From positions 1 through 64,000 of the forward strand of contig NZ_JACJPF010000062.1 in NCBI RefSeq assembly GCF_014695915.1: 64,000 bases of DNA, given 5' to 3'. The position numbers and the translations under genes were made by a program. Below the pieces are notes generated by a model. The model did not search any database. It saw only the letters and a program-made list of their open reading frames with translations, and was not told the origin of the DNA. Positions 21,359 to 61,310 of this stretch are shown here, one piece after another (position 1 is the stretch's first letter; every line of letters starts with the position of its first letter). This DNA comes from Trichocoleus sp. FACHB-40. GTDB taxonomy: Bacteria > Cyanobacteriota > Cyanobacteriia > Cyanobacteriales > FACHB-T130.

Positions 21359-22027
21359 ATGAATCAGGCGATGGAGATGAATAAAAATGGAATTTGTTTA
21401 AATATTGGGTGTTGGATAGATGTAGCGGAAGGATGGGAAAACATCGACGCATCACCCTACGTTAAAATTTCTAAAATTCCTCTCATCGGTTCCCGCGTTC
21501 TCTCGGCTATCGGTGCTCCAACCTTCCCAAAGTCTATCAAGCATGGTGACTTACTAAAAGGTCTAAATCTCCAGCCGGAAAGTTGCGAATTGATTTTTGC
21601 ATCCCACGTTCTTGAACACTTGAGCTTGGCTGATTTTGATGTAGCACTAAAAAACATTTACCTTTATTTGCAGCCCGGAGGGATTCTGCGAATCATCGTC
21701 CCAGATTTGGAAAAGTATGTAAAGACCTATCTTACTCAGCGTTCCGATAATTCATTATCAAGCAAGGCAGCTCATAAGTTTATGCACAACTCCTTTCTGG
21801 GAAACACAGGAAGTAGAATTACTATTAAAGAGCGGCTTAAAGAATTATTCTCTAATTCAAGACATCAATGGATGTGGGATGAACCATCACTTACCGAGGC
21901 CTTGACAAAGCATGGCTTTAAGAATATACGACGGTGCGAGTATGGCGATTGGTCAAATCCCAAATTTGGAACTGTCGAAAGGAAAGATAGGCATGGGGAT
22001 GCTATCTGTATAGAGGCAATCAAGTAA
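21359..22027 (+). CDS. SAM-dependent methyltransferase
   Basis: 222 residues. NIGCWIDVAEGWENID matches the type of cyanobacterial methyltransferase found in polysaccharide clusters. SCELIFASHVLEHLSL and YLQPGGILRIIVPDLEKYV are class I motifs IV-V. It lies 33 bp before the HpsL-like gene on the same strand and starts the cluster, so methylation of a sugar or glycan intermediate is likely. The substrate is unknown. Confidence 0.82.
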   Translation: MNQAMEMNKNGICLNIGCWIDVAEGWENIDASPYVKISKIPLIGSRVLSAIGAPTFPKSIKHGDLLKGLNLQPESCELIFASHVLEHLSLADFDVALKNIYLYLQPGGILRIIVPDLEKYVKTYLTQRSDNSLSSKAAHKFMHNSFLGNTGSRITIKERLKELFSNSRHQWMWDEPSLTEALTKHGFKNIRRCEYGDWSNPKFGTVERKDRHGDAICIEAIK

Positions 22028-57049: not shown

Positions 57050-57472
57050 CTACAGCCATTGTCCGCCCCGAAAACGCCAGCGGGGAAATATAATTCGCAT
57101 AATTGTTTGCGATGCTATATAAACAGCAAGCCAAACAACGCTGTAGTGGAGTGCGAACCATTGCAGCGGTAAATCTCGTCTTACACCTGGTAAGCCAAAT
57201 ATTTTTACTAATAGCACTATAAATATTGCTTCCCAGATACCAGCAAGTAATTGCAAGACTCCGGGCCAATCGCTATCCCAGCGAAATTTCTGGATATAGT
57301 CATAAAGAACATCCCAAGCCAGTCCAAAGATAGCAACATCTAGCAATACCCAGAAATAAACTGGATTCGCTGGGCCGATAATGCCCAAATAAAAGGGTAA
57401 AGTTACTAAAACGCCTACTGTTGCAAGTAGTAATAACCGAGTTTGCCAGCGACCAAACAGAGTTGGAGTCAT
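57050..57472 (-). CDS. Membrane protein, unknown
   Basis: 140 residues with four hydrophobic segments; DVLYDYIQKFRWDSDWPG is the longest loop and IMRIIFPRWRFRGGQW is a conserved-looking C-terminus. It resembles small cyanobacterial integral membrane proteins near FHA genes, but I do not recognise the family. It lies 135 bp downstream of the FHA-oxidoreductase gene on the same strand. Confidence 0.65.
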   Translation of the reverse strand: MTPTLFGRWQTRLLLLATVGVLVTLPFYLGIIGPANPVYFWVLLDVAIFGLAWDVLYDYIQKFRWDSDWPGVLQLLAGIWEAIFIVLLVKIFGLPGVRRDLPLQWFALHYSVVWLAVYIASQTIMRIIFPRWRFRGGQWL

Positions 57473-57607: not shown

Positions 57608-59599
57608 CTAAGGGGATTGATTTGCTGCCCATTTTAGCCATTGTCCAAGGGAACTAAAAAGGTTTAATCGGTGCATTCCAGGCGATCGCGCGGCTGCGAG
57701 GCTATCAACTGTACAAAGTGCGGCATACTGCAAACCGAGGAAGCTATCAACAGCCGCATAGGGGCCACCTAGTGTCATGGCACCAGCAGCATACATTCGC
57801 CCGCGTGAGGCGCGCATATCAACGATTTCAAAGTCGTTGGCGACGGCTATGCGCCCATTTTCGTACAAGGGGAGGTTGTAATGGCTAACGAGGTCGTTAA
57901 GCAGGGGACTTGCTTTGACTTTGGCATCGAGTCCGGTGGCATCAATGATAAAGTCAGCTTCCAGCCGAATTTGCCCTTTTAAGCCTTTCTCTTGAATGTA
58001 GGTGATGGTGTGTCCTGTTGCTGATGATTGCGGGTCGCGTTCGACTTTTTCAACTGCACCAAAGGCGATTTGATACCAGCCTTGGCGGATGCCTTCTTCT
58101 ACGATGCGCTTCCAATCTCCACGATCTGCGGTGGTGGTGCCTCCCCAGTCTGCTAGTAGGCGCGATCGCGCTTGGGGGTCGGCTTTTTCGAGCATTACCC
58201 GCAATTCGCCACCCCAGCAGGCTTTGGGCCAGTTAAAGGGTTGAAATTCGTAGTGATTTTCGACGGTACGCTGAGAGGTACCAAATTTGTTGCCTTGGGG
58301 TTTGGGCGATCGCATCAAGTGTAACAGCGCAATATTCTGATTTTTCTTTCTAGCTTCATAAATTCGCTGTACAATCCGCGAGGCGACAATTCCCCGTCCC
58401 CGAATCATCACCGTCCCGCCATATTGCTCTAAATGTTCGTAGACGTGGTTATGTTCTTCGTAGGCATTCACCACTGATTTGAAATCGCCTGTTTTTTCCC
58501 GGTATTCTTGCAAATCTGGGAGAAACTGAATTGCTGGATAGCCAGTTGCTAGTTGTACGTTGCGGGCGATTAAAAAAGCATGGTCGCGGCGGTTGGCGCT
58601 GGTGCGAGAATAAGCGATCGCATACCTTCCATCCTCTGTTTTCCGAATCGACCGCACGCTTCCGTAGCGAAATATTTGCTCCCAACCAATCCGTTTGGCT
58701 TCTCTATCTATTGAGTCAAATACATTACCAGCGCGGGGGGTGTAAGTTTGGGCAAAGGTTGGTTCAGCAAACACTTGCCATAAATACCCTAATGCTGTAC
58801 TAATACTTCCCTTAAACAAGTCGCGCCAAGCTTCCCGTAAAGCATAGCTGGGCCAACCCCAAATATTATCTGGACAAGAATCTGAGTTTGAGCGCAACCG
58901 TTCGTGCAGAGGAATTTGCGAATTCATGCAAAGCCGCTGGTAACGGGCGTAGGGCTGCGCCTCCATCCCCAAAGCCGCAATGCGATCGCTTTTCACCCCG
59001 GAAATTCTCAATAAATCCACCCAGACAAAGCTGCCCAACCCCGCCCCAACTGCCGCATAGTCCACTTCATCCACCGACAACCCGGTAGCATGGAGGTCTT
59101 GTACTACAACTTGGTCTGCCCCAAACACAGGCGGGGGAAAGCTACTACTAACCGCCACCACTGGTTGAGGTGCAGGCTGACTAATGTTGGGGTCGGGTAA
59201 ATCGGTGTCTGGGTTAAATAAAATCTGGGAATTGCCAGAAGGGGACGGCGCTGGTGTACTGGCAGCGAAAGTAACAATAATTTGGTAGGGGCCCATTTGC
59301 AGCGTATCGCCGTTCGCCAAAATGCTCCGCGTCTGACGTTGCCCATTGACAAAGGTGCCGTTGCTGCTGTTTTGGTCAATTACCACCACGCCGCCTGCAT
59401 CCTGTTCAATTAGGACGTGGAAGCGGGAAACCTCAAGACTATTAAGAACCATCCGGGAGACGCGACGCTCGTTTATTTCGGCTGGCATCTGATTAAATTC
59501 TCGTCCTAGCGCAATTGGGACGGAGAGTATTGGTTCGCGTCGTTCTCCCGTTGCTGGGTCGTCCCAGCTAAGCCGAAGGCGCAGGGATGCGGGATTCAT
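57608..59599 (-). CDS. FHA domain fused to a flavin/NAD(P)-binding oxidoreductase-like domain
   Basis: 663 residues. The FHA domain (about 20-110) has GR at 32-33, SRFH at 58-61 and SSNGTFVNG at 78-86, the phosphothreonine-binding residues. A linker of about 65 residues follows. The second part (about 185-640) starts VDYAAVGAGLGSFVWVDLL (GxGxxS, Rossmann-like), a later GGTVMIRGRGIVASRIVQ segment and a terminal GRMYAAGAMTLGGPYAAVD motif like an FAD-binding GD loop. It resembles lysine/ornithine N-monooxygenase-like proteins. It forms an operon with the FHA gene upstream (17-bp gap). The substrate is not known. Confidence 0.72.
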   Translation of the reverse strand: MNPASLRLRLSWDDPATGERREPILSVPIALGREFNQMPAEINERRVSRMVLNSLEVSRFHVLIEQDAGGVVVIDQNSSNGTFVNGQRQTRSILANGDTLQMGPYQIIVTFAASTPAPSPSGNSQILFNPDTDLPDPNISQPAPQPVVAVSSSFPPPVFGADQVVVQDLHATGLSVDEVDYAAVGAGLGSFVWVDLLRISGVKSDRIAALGMEAQPYARYQRLCMNSQIPLHERLRSNSDSCPDNIWGWPSYALREAWRDLFKGSISTALGYLWQVFAEPTFAQTYTPRAGNVFDSIDREAKRIGWEQIFRYGSVRSIRKTEDGRYAIAYSRTSANRRDHAFLIARNVQLATGYPAIQFLPDLQEYREKTGDFKSVVNAYEEHNHVYEHLEQYGGTVMIRGRGIVASRIVQRIYEARKKNQNIALLHLMRSPKPQGNKFGTSQRTVENHYEFQPFNWPKACWGGELRVMLEKADPQARSRLLADWGGTTTADRGDWKRIVEEGIRQGWYQIAFGAVEKVERDPQSSATGHTITYIQEKGLKGQIRLEADFIIDATGLDAKVKASPLLNDLVSHYNLPLYENGRIAVANDFEIVDMRASRGRMYAAGAMTLGGPYAAVDSFLGLQYAALCTVDSLAAARSPGMHRLNLFSSLGQWLKWAANQSP

Positions 59600-59616
59600 T
59601 CTTTATGACCTAAATA

Positions 59617-60168
59617 TTAGTTGCCGTTGGGAGTTACTAATACACTGAGCGCTGCTGCTAAGGAAGTGCCACACCAGGGACATCCCAAATTTAGCTGCTT
59701 ATACGGAGAAACTTTATTACAAGCAAAACATTGCAGCCCATAGGTTACAGGGTTAGGGCGGGTAGTTCCCGGAGCTACTGCTTTTGCTGCTGGGGAGGAC
59801 GGTGGCATTATTATAGTGGCGGGAACAGTGATCGCGCCCAGACAAACAGCAGTGACTTTTAGTTCCATCTGCCCTAAGTAAAAAATGCTACCCTGACTCA
59901 GAGCCACTTCGCCTTGAGCAATGCTGCATCCATCCACTAGAGGGGGATTACTTTCTCGCAGGGAACGCAAGTAGAAGCTTTGCTGCTGCGCTTGAAAAAA
60001 AATTTCGACGTGCAGCCCCGATACTGTGGGATCTGTCAGTACGATATCGCATCGAGCTGGGTCACGACCGATGCGGATTGTTCCAGGGTTTTTACCGATT
60101 TGGTGGTCGTTAATTGTCAGGCTTTTTACCTGCGTTGCTTCGTACCACTCTAAAGTTAGTTCGTTCAT
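59617..60168 (-). CDS. FHA domain protein with C-terminal zinc ribbon
   Basis: 183 residues. FHA core: IRIGRDPARCDIVLTDPTVSGLHVEIF, with the usual GR and S-G-L-H pattern in place of SRxH, so the phosphothreonine site is partly altered. The end is a zinc ribbon, CFAC and CPWC, 18 residues apart. FHA plus zinc ribbon suits a scaffold or adaptor. It is upstream of the FHA-oxidoreductase gene with a 17-bp gap; an Ser/Thr kinase partner was not found in the window. Confidence 0.78.
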   Translation of the reverse strand: MNELTLEWYEATQVKSLTINDHQIGKNPGTIRIGRDPARCDIVLTDPTVSGLHVEIFFQAQQQSFYLRSLRESNPPLVDGCSIAQGEVALSQGSIFYLGQMELKVTAVCLGAITVPATIIMPPSSPAAKAVAPGTTRPNPVTYGLQCFACNKVSPYKQLNLGCPWCGTSLAAALSVLVTPNGN

Positions 60169-60282: not shown

Positions 60283-60648
60283 GGGATTGGGGACTGGGGA
60301 TTGGGGATTGGGAAGACCTATACATTAAATCCGGTTAATTTGGAACCCCAGAACCCTACCCTGCTCTTCGTTGAGGCAGGGTGGTTTTATACAATGAGAA
60401 AAAATATCGAAAATTGCAACACTTTGTAGGGGCATTGCCATGCCCCTACCGCCAACCAAAATCAACGTTATAGAATTTTCTTTTAATCAATGAAGCCACT
60501 CTGCTTTTTAAGGGAGATGCAAGGGGTATCTTGTAGGGCTTGCTACAGCCAGTGGGACTTTTAAAACATCCTTTTAAATCAGTCCCATTGCACCCTACCG
60601 AACTTCAGCGGAAGGTTCCCCAATCCCCAATCCCCAATCCCCAATCCC
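60283..60648. repeat. Gap with two inverted GGGGATT STRR arrays
   Basis: No gene lies in 60169-60647. GGGGATT/GGGGACT units at 60283-60312 face CCCCAAT units at 60618-60648 in inverted orientation. A C/G hairpin, ACCCTGC/GCAGGGT (60358-60382), lies between. The second array reaches the TAG stop of nfi. Confidence 0.8.
60426..60449. repeat. Dispersed palindrome, GTAGGGGCATGGC type, copy 3
   Basis: GTAGGGGCA-TTGCCA-TGCCCCTAC; the arms match copies at 9856 and 30342. Confidence 0.82.
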
Positions 60649-61310
60649 TACCTATTCGATGCCAATTTATCAGCCCAGCGGGTTGTCTCTGGCAAACGAT
60701 ATTTCGGCGTACAACGCATTACATAATCTATTGCCGTTGTCAAGCTTACTCGATGTCCGCTAGAGACATAAACTGGTTTAACGCCTTTGCGAGTCCGCAA
60801 GACTGCGCCGATTGTTTCACGGCGATGGATTAAAGGTTGCCAATTGCCGCGTTCTAAAGGCAATTCCTCATGCTTCCCAACCAGCAAGGATTTCGCTACG
60901 CCAATAGTGGGAACGTCTATCAGCACTCCCAAATGGCAGGCAATCCCAAAGCGACGGGGATGGGCGATGCCTTGACCATCACATAATATCAAGTCAGGCG
61001 CGATCGCGAGTTTCTCTAGCGCGTCCAGTACGGCGGGGATTTCTCGAAACGAGAGGAATCCGGGAACATAGGGAAAGGTAGTAGGACGCTTTGCGATCGC
61101 TTGCTCTTTTAGCTCCAAGTCTGGAAAACTGAGAACGGCAACAGCTGCGCGTGAGATGCTAAAAGAATCCTCAAAGCCCATATCGACACCAGCCACATAC
61201 TGCACCGATTCCAACTGATCTGAGGTGATTACTTCTTTTCTGAGCTCTTGTTGAATAGGCAGCGCTTCTTCAACTGTAAGAGGCCATGCGTGACGTTGGT
61301 GGATTTTCAT
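60648..61310 (-). CDS. nfi: Endonuclease V
   Basis: 220 residues. Cuts DNA near deaminated bases, mainly inosine, as a repair nuclease. Motifs: [11 protein letters not shown] (metal Asp), [40 protein letters not shown] and [12 protein letters not shown]. The start ATG overlaps the stop of the glycosyltransferase gene by 4 bp (ATGA). The stop codon abuts the CCCCAAT tandem repeat. Confidence 0.95.

Follow-up and report, generated by a model that had tools for sequence, protein, structure and literature searches.

In the cyanobacterium Trichocoleus sp. FACHB-40, a protein that joins an FHA domain to a large predicted flavoprotein domain (FHAox) has a small membrane protein (mem) as its near-obligate partner. 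Both genes lie in the first 64,000 nucleotides of contig NZ_JACJPF010000062.1, the stretch analysed here and referred to as the window, which is part of contig C86 in a genome of 6.38 Mb. Three minus-strand genes follow one another in the order FHAzn, FHAox, mem, with gaps of 17 bp and 135 bp (Table 1), FHAzn being an operon-like neighbour that encodes a second FHA domain with a four-cysteine ribbon. A first-pass annotation, made from the sequence alone, had delimited the FHAox and FHAzn reading frames, which are confirmed, and had taken them for a candidate signalling system, not described before, that couples phosphopeptide binding to redox chemistry. It had also recorded a membrane protein following on the same strand; this gene is present, but its role as a near-obligate partner was understated. 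The earlier interpretation is partly supported, and is best re-centred on the pair of flavoprotein and mem, with the FHA domains as a control layer. The explanation favoured here, to which we would give about an even chance, is that flavoprotein and mem form one redox module, which in cyanobacteria is gated by a protein kinase.

FHAox has long matches, free of internal stops, in 29 of 60 genomes (its own included), of which 28 are nearly full-length in one piece and one (G058) is in two, and its flavin domain was found in 61 of 386 genomes sampled across the cyanobacterial phylum. Given these long uninterrupted matches, the reading frame cannot be attributed to chance, and a pseudogene is likewise ruled out. 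A profile search in 21 of the 31 relatives without FHAox produced nothing convincing, one genome giving an E-value of 0.05. The distribution of mem follows that of FHAox closely: 28 of 29 genomes with FHAox have it, against 0 of the 31 without (Fisher test, 2.8e-16, uncorrected for phylogeny), and in the phylum-wide sample 60 genomes have both, one has FHAox only, one has mem only, as a broken copy, and 324 have neither (2.5e-68, again uncorrected). Seven families (f1, f5, f13, f14, f20, f24 and f25) contain genomes with and without FHAox, and in all of them mem tracks FHAox with the exception of G002 in f1. The broken mem, in a genome with no FHAox match (L216, G416:C1:3657581-3658011), is split in two and has three stops, as though mem degenerates once its enzyme has gone.

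The distance from flavoprotein to mem was taken for 64 copies: it is at most 300 bp in 25, greater but at most 6 kb in 27, and up to 10 kb in one. Among the other eleven, five share a contig with their nearest mem at a distance of 0.5-2.6 Mb, five have mem on a different contig and one has none, a count which omits the second piece of the split FHAox in G058 and both pieces of the broken mem in G416. Three genomes (G210, G288 and G317) carry two flavoproteins and two mems each. Trees of 22 pairs, from which a fused copy in G288 was excluded, recover an identical seven-member clade for both proteins (support 96/92 and 96/99); within this clade the order differs between the two trees, and many mem branches are open.

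The predicted structure of mem has four helices. Its sequence approaches the family DUF3267 (PF11667), the window protein scoring 14.0 bits against a cut-off of 27.1 and 23 of 35 members matching at an E-value of 1 or less (best 7.7e-05), and it also gives weak matches to UbiA. A Foldseek search of the PDB with mem returned no match at an E-value of 0.001 or less. Because no histidine of mem is conserved into its homologue in Nonomuraea, the protein has no obvious haem ligand, and its identification as a haem-binding membrane protein is unsupported.

Nonomuraea also suggests which parts constitute the core. A 505-residue protein of Nonomuraea gerenzanensis matches residues 172-663 of FHAox with 36.8% identity, and is directly followed by a mem homologue (36.4% identity over query residues 53-140), such that the adjacency of flavoprotein and mem is seen in two phyla. 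The 505-residue protein has zero Pfam matches, and hence no recognised FHA or other signalling domain. As it stands next to mem without an FHA domain, flavoprotein and mem look like the core, and the FHA domain was probably added in the cyanobacteria as a means of regulation. Whether the FHA domain was gained in one lineage or lost in the other cannot be polarised, since the evidence from outside the cyanobacteria is one record: in the plasmid collection, both the full-length flavoprotein match and the mem match occur only in NZ_LT559118.1, a chromosome-sized record of 11.85 Mb classed as a plasmid. A collection of viral contigs gave 40 pattern matches, none of which was confirmed as a relative.

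Within the cyanobacteria, five of the loci inspected (L209, L210, L211, L212 and L217) belong to a second subfamily, B, with a flavin-domain identity of 51-54%. FHA domain, flavin domain and mem are kept at all five, and no match to FHAzn was found at any of them. Near four of the five lies a small YHS-like protein (sub-threshold YHS E-values of 0.0037 and 0.0074 in the two scanned), which could be an extracytoplasmic partner; its N-terminus, judged by eye, resembles a lipoprotein signal. At the fifth, a thioredoxin-like protein is found upstream. One of these loci, the second copy of G288 (L209:2179-4386, minus strand), has FHA domain, flavin domain and mem in a single frame of 735 residues, in which the flavin domain lacks its last 140 residues or so and is continued immediately by mem. 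As the flavin domain is cut short, and the frame may be a decaying fusion or deletion product of the second copy, it is not counted as proof of an interaction.

In the favoured mechanism, the flavoprotein and the four-helix mem would act as one redox module in which electrons pass from NAD(P)H to FAD, and the flavoprotein would oxidise, or less likely reduce, a substrate held at or delivered by mem, the likeliest chemistry being a monooxygenation like that of group B enzymes. Control by Ser/Thr kinases would have been gained in the cyanobacteria through fusion of an FHA domain to the flavoprotein, to which most lineages would have added FHAzn, whose own FHA domain is accompanied by a zinc ribbon. 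A kinase would phosphorylate a conserved threonine, for which Thr132 in the FHAox linker and Thr118 in that of FHAzn are candidates, and the FHA domains would read the phosphothreonine, causing the complex at the membrane to open, close or assemble. Of this scheme, the sequences themselves show the FHA domains with their conserved pockets, the conserved threonines of the linkers, and the gene pair with its joint inheritance; the flavoprotein fold and the four helices come from models, and the binding of flavin and NAD(P)H, the chemistry, the phosphorylation and a physical complex are inferred. In its most specific form, that of a new-family NAD(P)H-flavin enzyme with an obligate four-helix partner, making up an undescribed membrane redox module common to cyanobacteria and an actinobacterium, onto which cyanobacteria have grafted a kinase-read gate whose phosphorylated linker threonine (Thr132 of FHAox, Thr118 of FHAzn or both) is bound in cis or trans by both FHA domains, the proposal is rather doubtful.

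Residues 174-663 of the window protein have zero Pfam and NCBIfam matches. A comparison of 30 cyanobacterial sequences with the Nonomuraea protein finds 78 invariant positions, both Rossmann motifs among them; the GAGLGS and later Rossmann motifs pointed out by the first-pass annotation are present, with invariant glycines. Invariant polar residues outside the cofactor motifs include R234, R236, D244, N245, E279, R299, E300, H383, K459 and D618. The invariant H383-x-x-x-Y387 resembles the HxxxY/F end of the flavin-containing monooxygenase fingerprint, as found in the fingerprint region of group B enzymes. None of the 78 positions is a cysteine. Thiol-dependent flavin disulfide reductases, such as thioredoxin reductase, DLD, CoADR and Bdr, need one or more conserved redox-active cysteines, and a thiol/disulfide mechanism is therefore unlikely; a thiol-disulfide reductase is ruled out on this ground despite the top ranks that such enzymes take in the structural comparison by VIA-align described below.

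The same annotation had likened the domain to N-monooxygenases. Membership of the corresponding family, PF13434 (Lys_Orn_oxgnase), is not borne out, as the window protein has no match and only two of 30 relatives scanned singly give one, below the cut-off (best E-value 0.15); such scans gave further weak matches, among others to FAD_oxidored in 8/30 (best 0.0096) and to LodB in 10/30 (best 0.0017). Searching the PDB sequences with the family profile produced nothing meaningful (a single match, E-value 1.6). Thirty-two flavoproteins were also scanned ad hoc with hhalign, the controls being weak ones (single sequences, or profiles built from two to five). A cyanobacterial group that matches PF13434 weakly took three of the four top scores, and its profile aligns with the FHAox family over 324 columns (E-value 0.0012, probability 19%).

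The likeness to N-monooxygenases is also seen in the predicted fold. An AlphaFold model built from the window protein and 53 relatives (predicted local distance difference test, pLDDT, 73.8; predicted template modelling score, pTM, 0.59) has an FHA beta sandwich at residues 7-112 and, beyond a linker modelled with low confidence, a flavoprotein fold with two dinucleotide-binding domains from residue 175 to about 640, with a beta-alpha-beta unit at residues 395-429. Foldseek against the PDB returned 255 matches at an E-value of 0.001 or less, spanning residues 175-645, of which the top is the ornithine hydroxylase SidA (3.8e-15, TM-score by target 0.56); further matches include PvdA, putrescine N-hydroxylase and dihydrolipoamide dehydrogenase. 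The two-Rossmann order and these matches are a likeness at the level of the fold, which is common to reductases too. The predicted model thus makes the superfamily of the flavin domain clear, and does not decide between monooxygenase and reductase.

The alternative that survives best, though we consider it somewhat unlikely, is that the flavoprotein works as an NAD(P)H reductase, its electrons going either to a quinone or to some carrier that mem binds. Ferredoxin/flavodoxin-NADP reductases (FNR) have the same fold and hand electrons to carriers, and VIA-align places Bdr/YpdA (Z 22.2, 312 residues aligned), FNR and thioredoxin reductases above PvdA (Z 19.0, 353 aligned), rows less than 1 Z apart being read as tied. 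An obligate membrane partner would also suit electron transfer at the membrane. Further points in favour are the YHS-like proteins near four of the five subfamily B loci and the thioredoxin-like one at the fifth. By contrast, the absence of an invariant cysteine makes disulfide chemistry unlikely, mem offers no histidine conserved into Nonomuraea as an obvious haem ligand, and the top Foldseek matches are N-hydroxylases, whose alignments are longer than that of Bdr in VIA-align as well.

FHAox keeps the residues usual for a phosphothreonine pocket. Both FHA domains, each called by the first-pass annotation, pass the PF00498 cut-off of 20.7 bits, FHAox with 50.9 and FHAzn with 47.8. The phosphothreonine pocket of FHA domains is formed by GR, SxxH and NG residues according to PMC1262709. 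In an alignment of 110 FHAox sequences (108 of them distinct, so that redundancy barely alters the ratios), each of the pocket residues G32, R33, S58, R59, H61, N80, G81 and N85 is kept in 108-110, with G32 and H61 found in 110/110, R33, S58 and G81 in 109/110 and N80 in 108/110. The linker behind the domain (residues 113-153) has a block pLDDT of 36-53 over residues 111-150 and is probably disordered. It is variable except for a short motif, in which I126, F128 and T132 are each kept in 108/110 sequences and S124 in 104/110; among the 108 distinct sequences the counts are 106 for each of the three and 102 for S124. Separate open reading frames of about 186-229 residues whose FHA domains reach 52% identity with the one in FHAox were also seen (G003:C28:109329-109682, G004:C34:8561-8899, G029:C63:24291-24641 and others), and occur in genomes without FHAox too.

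In FHAzn the pocket is retained in part: GR, the serine and the asparagine are found in 80/80 sequences and the histidine in 79/80, NG reads NP, and SRxH is mostly SGLH, its arginine being replaced by glycine in 74/80. The zinc ribbon that had been predicted alongside this domain stands on its four conserved cysteines, and is sub-threshold in Pfam (Zn_ribbon_NOB1, E-value 0.013). FHAzn as part of the obligate core is ruled out, since no match to it was found in G034, G056, G104, G113 and G147, and FHA domains like its own are found in kinases as well. In G034, a 142-residue FHA protein (L166:4986-5414, plus strand) stands upstream of FHAox where FHAzn would otherwise be; it is 45% identical to the FHA domain of FHAox, and its linker motif is similar.

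By their position and conservation, Thr132 of FHAox and Thr118 of FHAzn are candidate phosphosites. The conservation of a linker threonine is equally compatible with a motif that is bound without phosphate, and a second alternative is that the FHA domains bind their partners phosphate-free, in the manner of OdhI and GarA, whose unphosphorylated forms bind their target enzymes, the active state requiring no kinase. The lost arginine of FHAzn would fit this, and two reports describe OdhI binding OdhA through its FHA domain (PMC10415282), and inhibition by unphosphorylated OdhI that is abolished on phosphorylation by PknG (PMC9769921). We regard it as distinctly unlikely, as FHAox retains in nearly all sequences a phosphothreonine pocket that would be needless for a purely phosphate-free role.

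It is improbable that the flavin domain is a non-catalytic cofactor-binding sensor or scaffold, whose redox state the FHA domain reports to a kinase network. The GxGxGS sequence deviates from the usual motif, the domain falls in no known family, and it is fused to an FHA domain in the cyanobacterial members examined, all of which such a sensor might explain; against this, the 78 positions invariant across two phyla, many of them polar and outside the cofactor motifs, resemble an active site, and the Nonomuraea protein has no signalling domain recognised by Pfam. Finally, that FHAox and mem merely travel in one gene cluster without joint function, as the mem found within 6 kb of 52 of the 64 flavoprotein copies could suggest, is highly improbable in view of the ten separated pairs that have been kept (in five, 0.5-2.6 Mb of a single contig lies between the genes), the joint absence of both genes from the same genomes of the seven contrast families, the neighbourhood in two phyla, the merely broken mem retained by G416, and FHAzn, which adjoins FHAox in 79/80 loci and yet is unmatched in lineages retaining the two core genes, so that linkage alone does not force co-inheritance.

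No kinase lies in the window, as had been noted before; indeed contig C86 has no Pkinase match, while the same genome has 45 over the cut-off. A link to kinases runs through FHAzn, to whose FHA domain five proteins of four relatives (two in G029 and one each in G045, G007 and G018) have FHA domains 50-60% identical. All five carry a Pkinase domain over the Pfam cut-off; for L162, the open reading frame as called covers just the latter half of the kinase model. In the genome of the window itself, FHAzn is the sole FHAzn-like match at an E-value of 0.001 or less. Among the neighbourhoods inspected, a kinase-TPR protein adjoins the cluster in G016, and the second copy in G288 has close to it an open reading frame that combines WD40 repeats with a kinase-like start, Pkinase being absent from the best 25 of its 59 Pfam families. 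Over the contig and neighbourhoods covered, a kinase linked to the module was rejected.

Several of these results weigh against a kinase-gated monooxygenase module. No single kinase could be tied to it; five genomes that keep FHAox and mem have no FHAzn match; and the Fisher tests take no account of phylogeny. FHAox genomes without a detected mem do exist, G311 (1/61) and G002 (1/29), and genomes in several contigs may conceal linkage. FAD motifs usually have glycine or asparagine at the third position, where the GxGxGS of FHAox has serine. The sole strong PF13434 member tried, L169, scored 18.1 in the hhalign scan against a best of 38.8, and the best hhalign probability was 44%. VIA-align puts reductases above monooxygenases, with 19 rows of Z 22.2-19.0 free of N-hydroxylases before PvdA at row 20. 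Confidence in the model is moderate, and pLDDT falls below 50 at residues 228-246, 354-358, 434-468, 556-563 and 611-616, conserved motif regions included.

Table 1. Positions of the genes and motifs discussed (window coordinates unless a locus is named)
Feature	Position	Strand	Description
FHAox	57608..59599	-	FHA-flavoprotein gene, 663 aa; reading frame, Pfam, homologues and model
FHAzn	59617..60168	-	183 aa, FHA domain and four-Cys ribbon; 17 bp upstream of FHAox
mem	57050..57472	-	Small membrane protein, 140 aa, four modelled helices; near-obligate partner of FHAox
FHA domain of FHAox	59264..59581	-	Residues 7-112 in model; Pfam FHA 2.1e-13 over residues 46-103
Linker motif SxIxFNPxTxLPDP of FHAox	59189..59230	-	Residues 124-137; conserved, within low-confidence linker
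Thr132 codon of FHAox	59204-59206	-	Candidate phosphosite
Flavoprotein domain	57611..59140	-	Residues 154-663; no Pfam or NCBIfam family in window protein
First Rossmann motif GAGLGS	59030..59047	-	Residues 185-190; presumed FAD site; G185, G187, G189 invariant including Nonomuraea
ATGY motif	58538..58549	-	Residues 351-354; G353, Y354 invariant including Nonomuraea
H383-x-x-x-Y387	58439..58453	-	Directly before second Rossmann motif; both residues invariant including Nonomuraea
Second Rossmann motif GRGIVA (GxGxxA)	58382..58399	-	Residues 401-406; presumed NAD(P)H site; G401, G403, A406 invariant
DATGL motif	57929..57943	-	Residues 553-557; D553, T555, G556, L557 invariant
CxxC...CxxC ribbon of FHAzn	59671..59730	-	Residues 147-166; C147, C150, C163 80/80, C166 79/80
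Thr118 of FHAzn	59815..59817	-	Linker, candidate phosphosite; Thr in 76/80, remaining 4 gaps
Nonomuraea pair	L189:19929-21446 and about 21444-21862	+	NZ_LT559118.1; FHA-less flavoprotein, then mem homologue
YHS-like protein	L209:1512-1982, L210:5850-6383, L211:1243-1806, L217:1362-2048		Near flavoprotein-mem pair

The surroundings of the three genes were compared over the best 80 of 348 relatives from the contig-collection scan, these 80 all having cyanobacterial titles. In 79 of these loci, FHAzn precedes FHAox on the same strand, at 300 bp or less in 72/79 and at most 1,542 bp away; the only other locus (L093) has FHAox at the start of its contig. According to Pfam, the window genes are flanked by an endonuclease V gene upstream and a CBM48/alpha-amylase-type gene downstream. 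The former (60648-61310, minus strand) is present within the FHAox locus in 69/80 cases, possibly a conserved neighbourhood with no obvious functional link. Among the neighbour clusters common to at least 6 of the 80 loci, no kinase was seen, judging by the first 110 residues of each.

Should the proposed gating be correct, the module would represent a flavin redox enzyme switched directly by Hanks-type kinases. It offers a possible kinase output that is open to direct test, as the enzyme comes with a phosphothreonine reader of its own and both a candidate phosphosite and a membrane partner can be named. The flavin family, spread through the cyanobacterial sample, has no proposed function in Pfam or NCBIfam, and its association with a single membrane protein in two phyla provides a handle on the substrate. 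No account of an FHA-flavoprotein or of the FHAox-mem pair was found in the available portions of the open-licence literature on FHA domains (among it PMC6584798, PMC6213207, PMC7880944, PMC7159879, PMC2176072, PMC1262709 and PMC11871447), which does not prove that they are unpublished.

Of the systems already known, the N-hydroxylating monooxygenases of the SidA, PvdA and IucD type (PF13434, group B) resemble FHAox in having two Rossmann-type motifs in equal order and ATGY-like and DATG-like motifs, in providing the best Foldseek matches in the PDB, and through a cyanobacterial group, the scanned member of which passes the PF13434 cut-off, whose profile matches weakly but colinearly. FHAox differs from them in remaining below that cut-off, in its GxGxGS motif, in the additional FHA domain and in the near-obligate membrane partner, and the sole strong PF13434 member tried gave no notable profile match. 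The pyridine-nucleotide flavoproteins of the Bdr/YpdA and FNR types hold the top VIA-align scores (Bdr Z 22.2, FNR entries 21.1 to 19.6, within rows 1-9), over about 310-330 aligned residues that leave out the large insertions of FHAox, which unlike Bdr has no invariant cysteine. With the actinobacterial GarA and OdhI, FHAox shares an FHA domain (phmmer E-value 7.9e-07 to GarA) and a conserved threonine in a flexible segment beside it. In GarA and OdhI, the threonine phosphorylated by the kinase is N-terminal to the FHA domain, in a flexible segment that is bound by the protein's own FHA domain; that of FHAox is C-terminal, and the FHA domain is fused to an enzyme. Close relatives of the FHA domain of FHAzn, at 50-60% identity, are carried by FHA-containing Ser/Thr kinases, which are known in cyanobacteria from PMC2176072 (as cbSTKII-FHA) and PMC1262709; unlike these, FHAzn has a four-cysteine ribbon in place of a kinase domain, and adjoins a flavoprotein.

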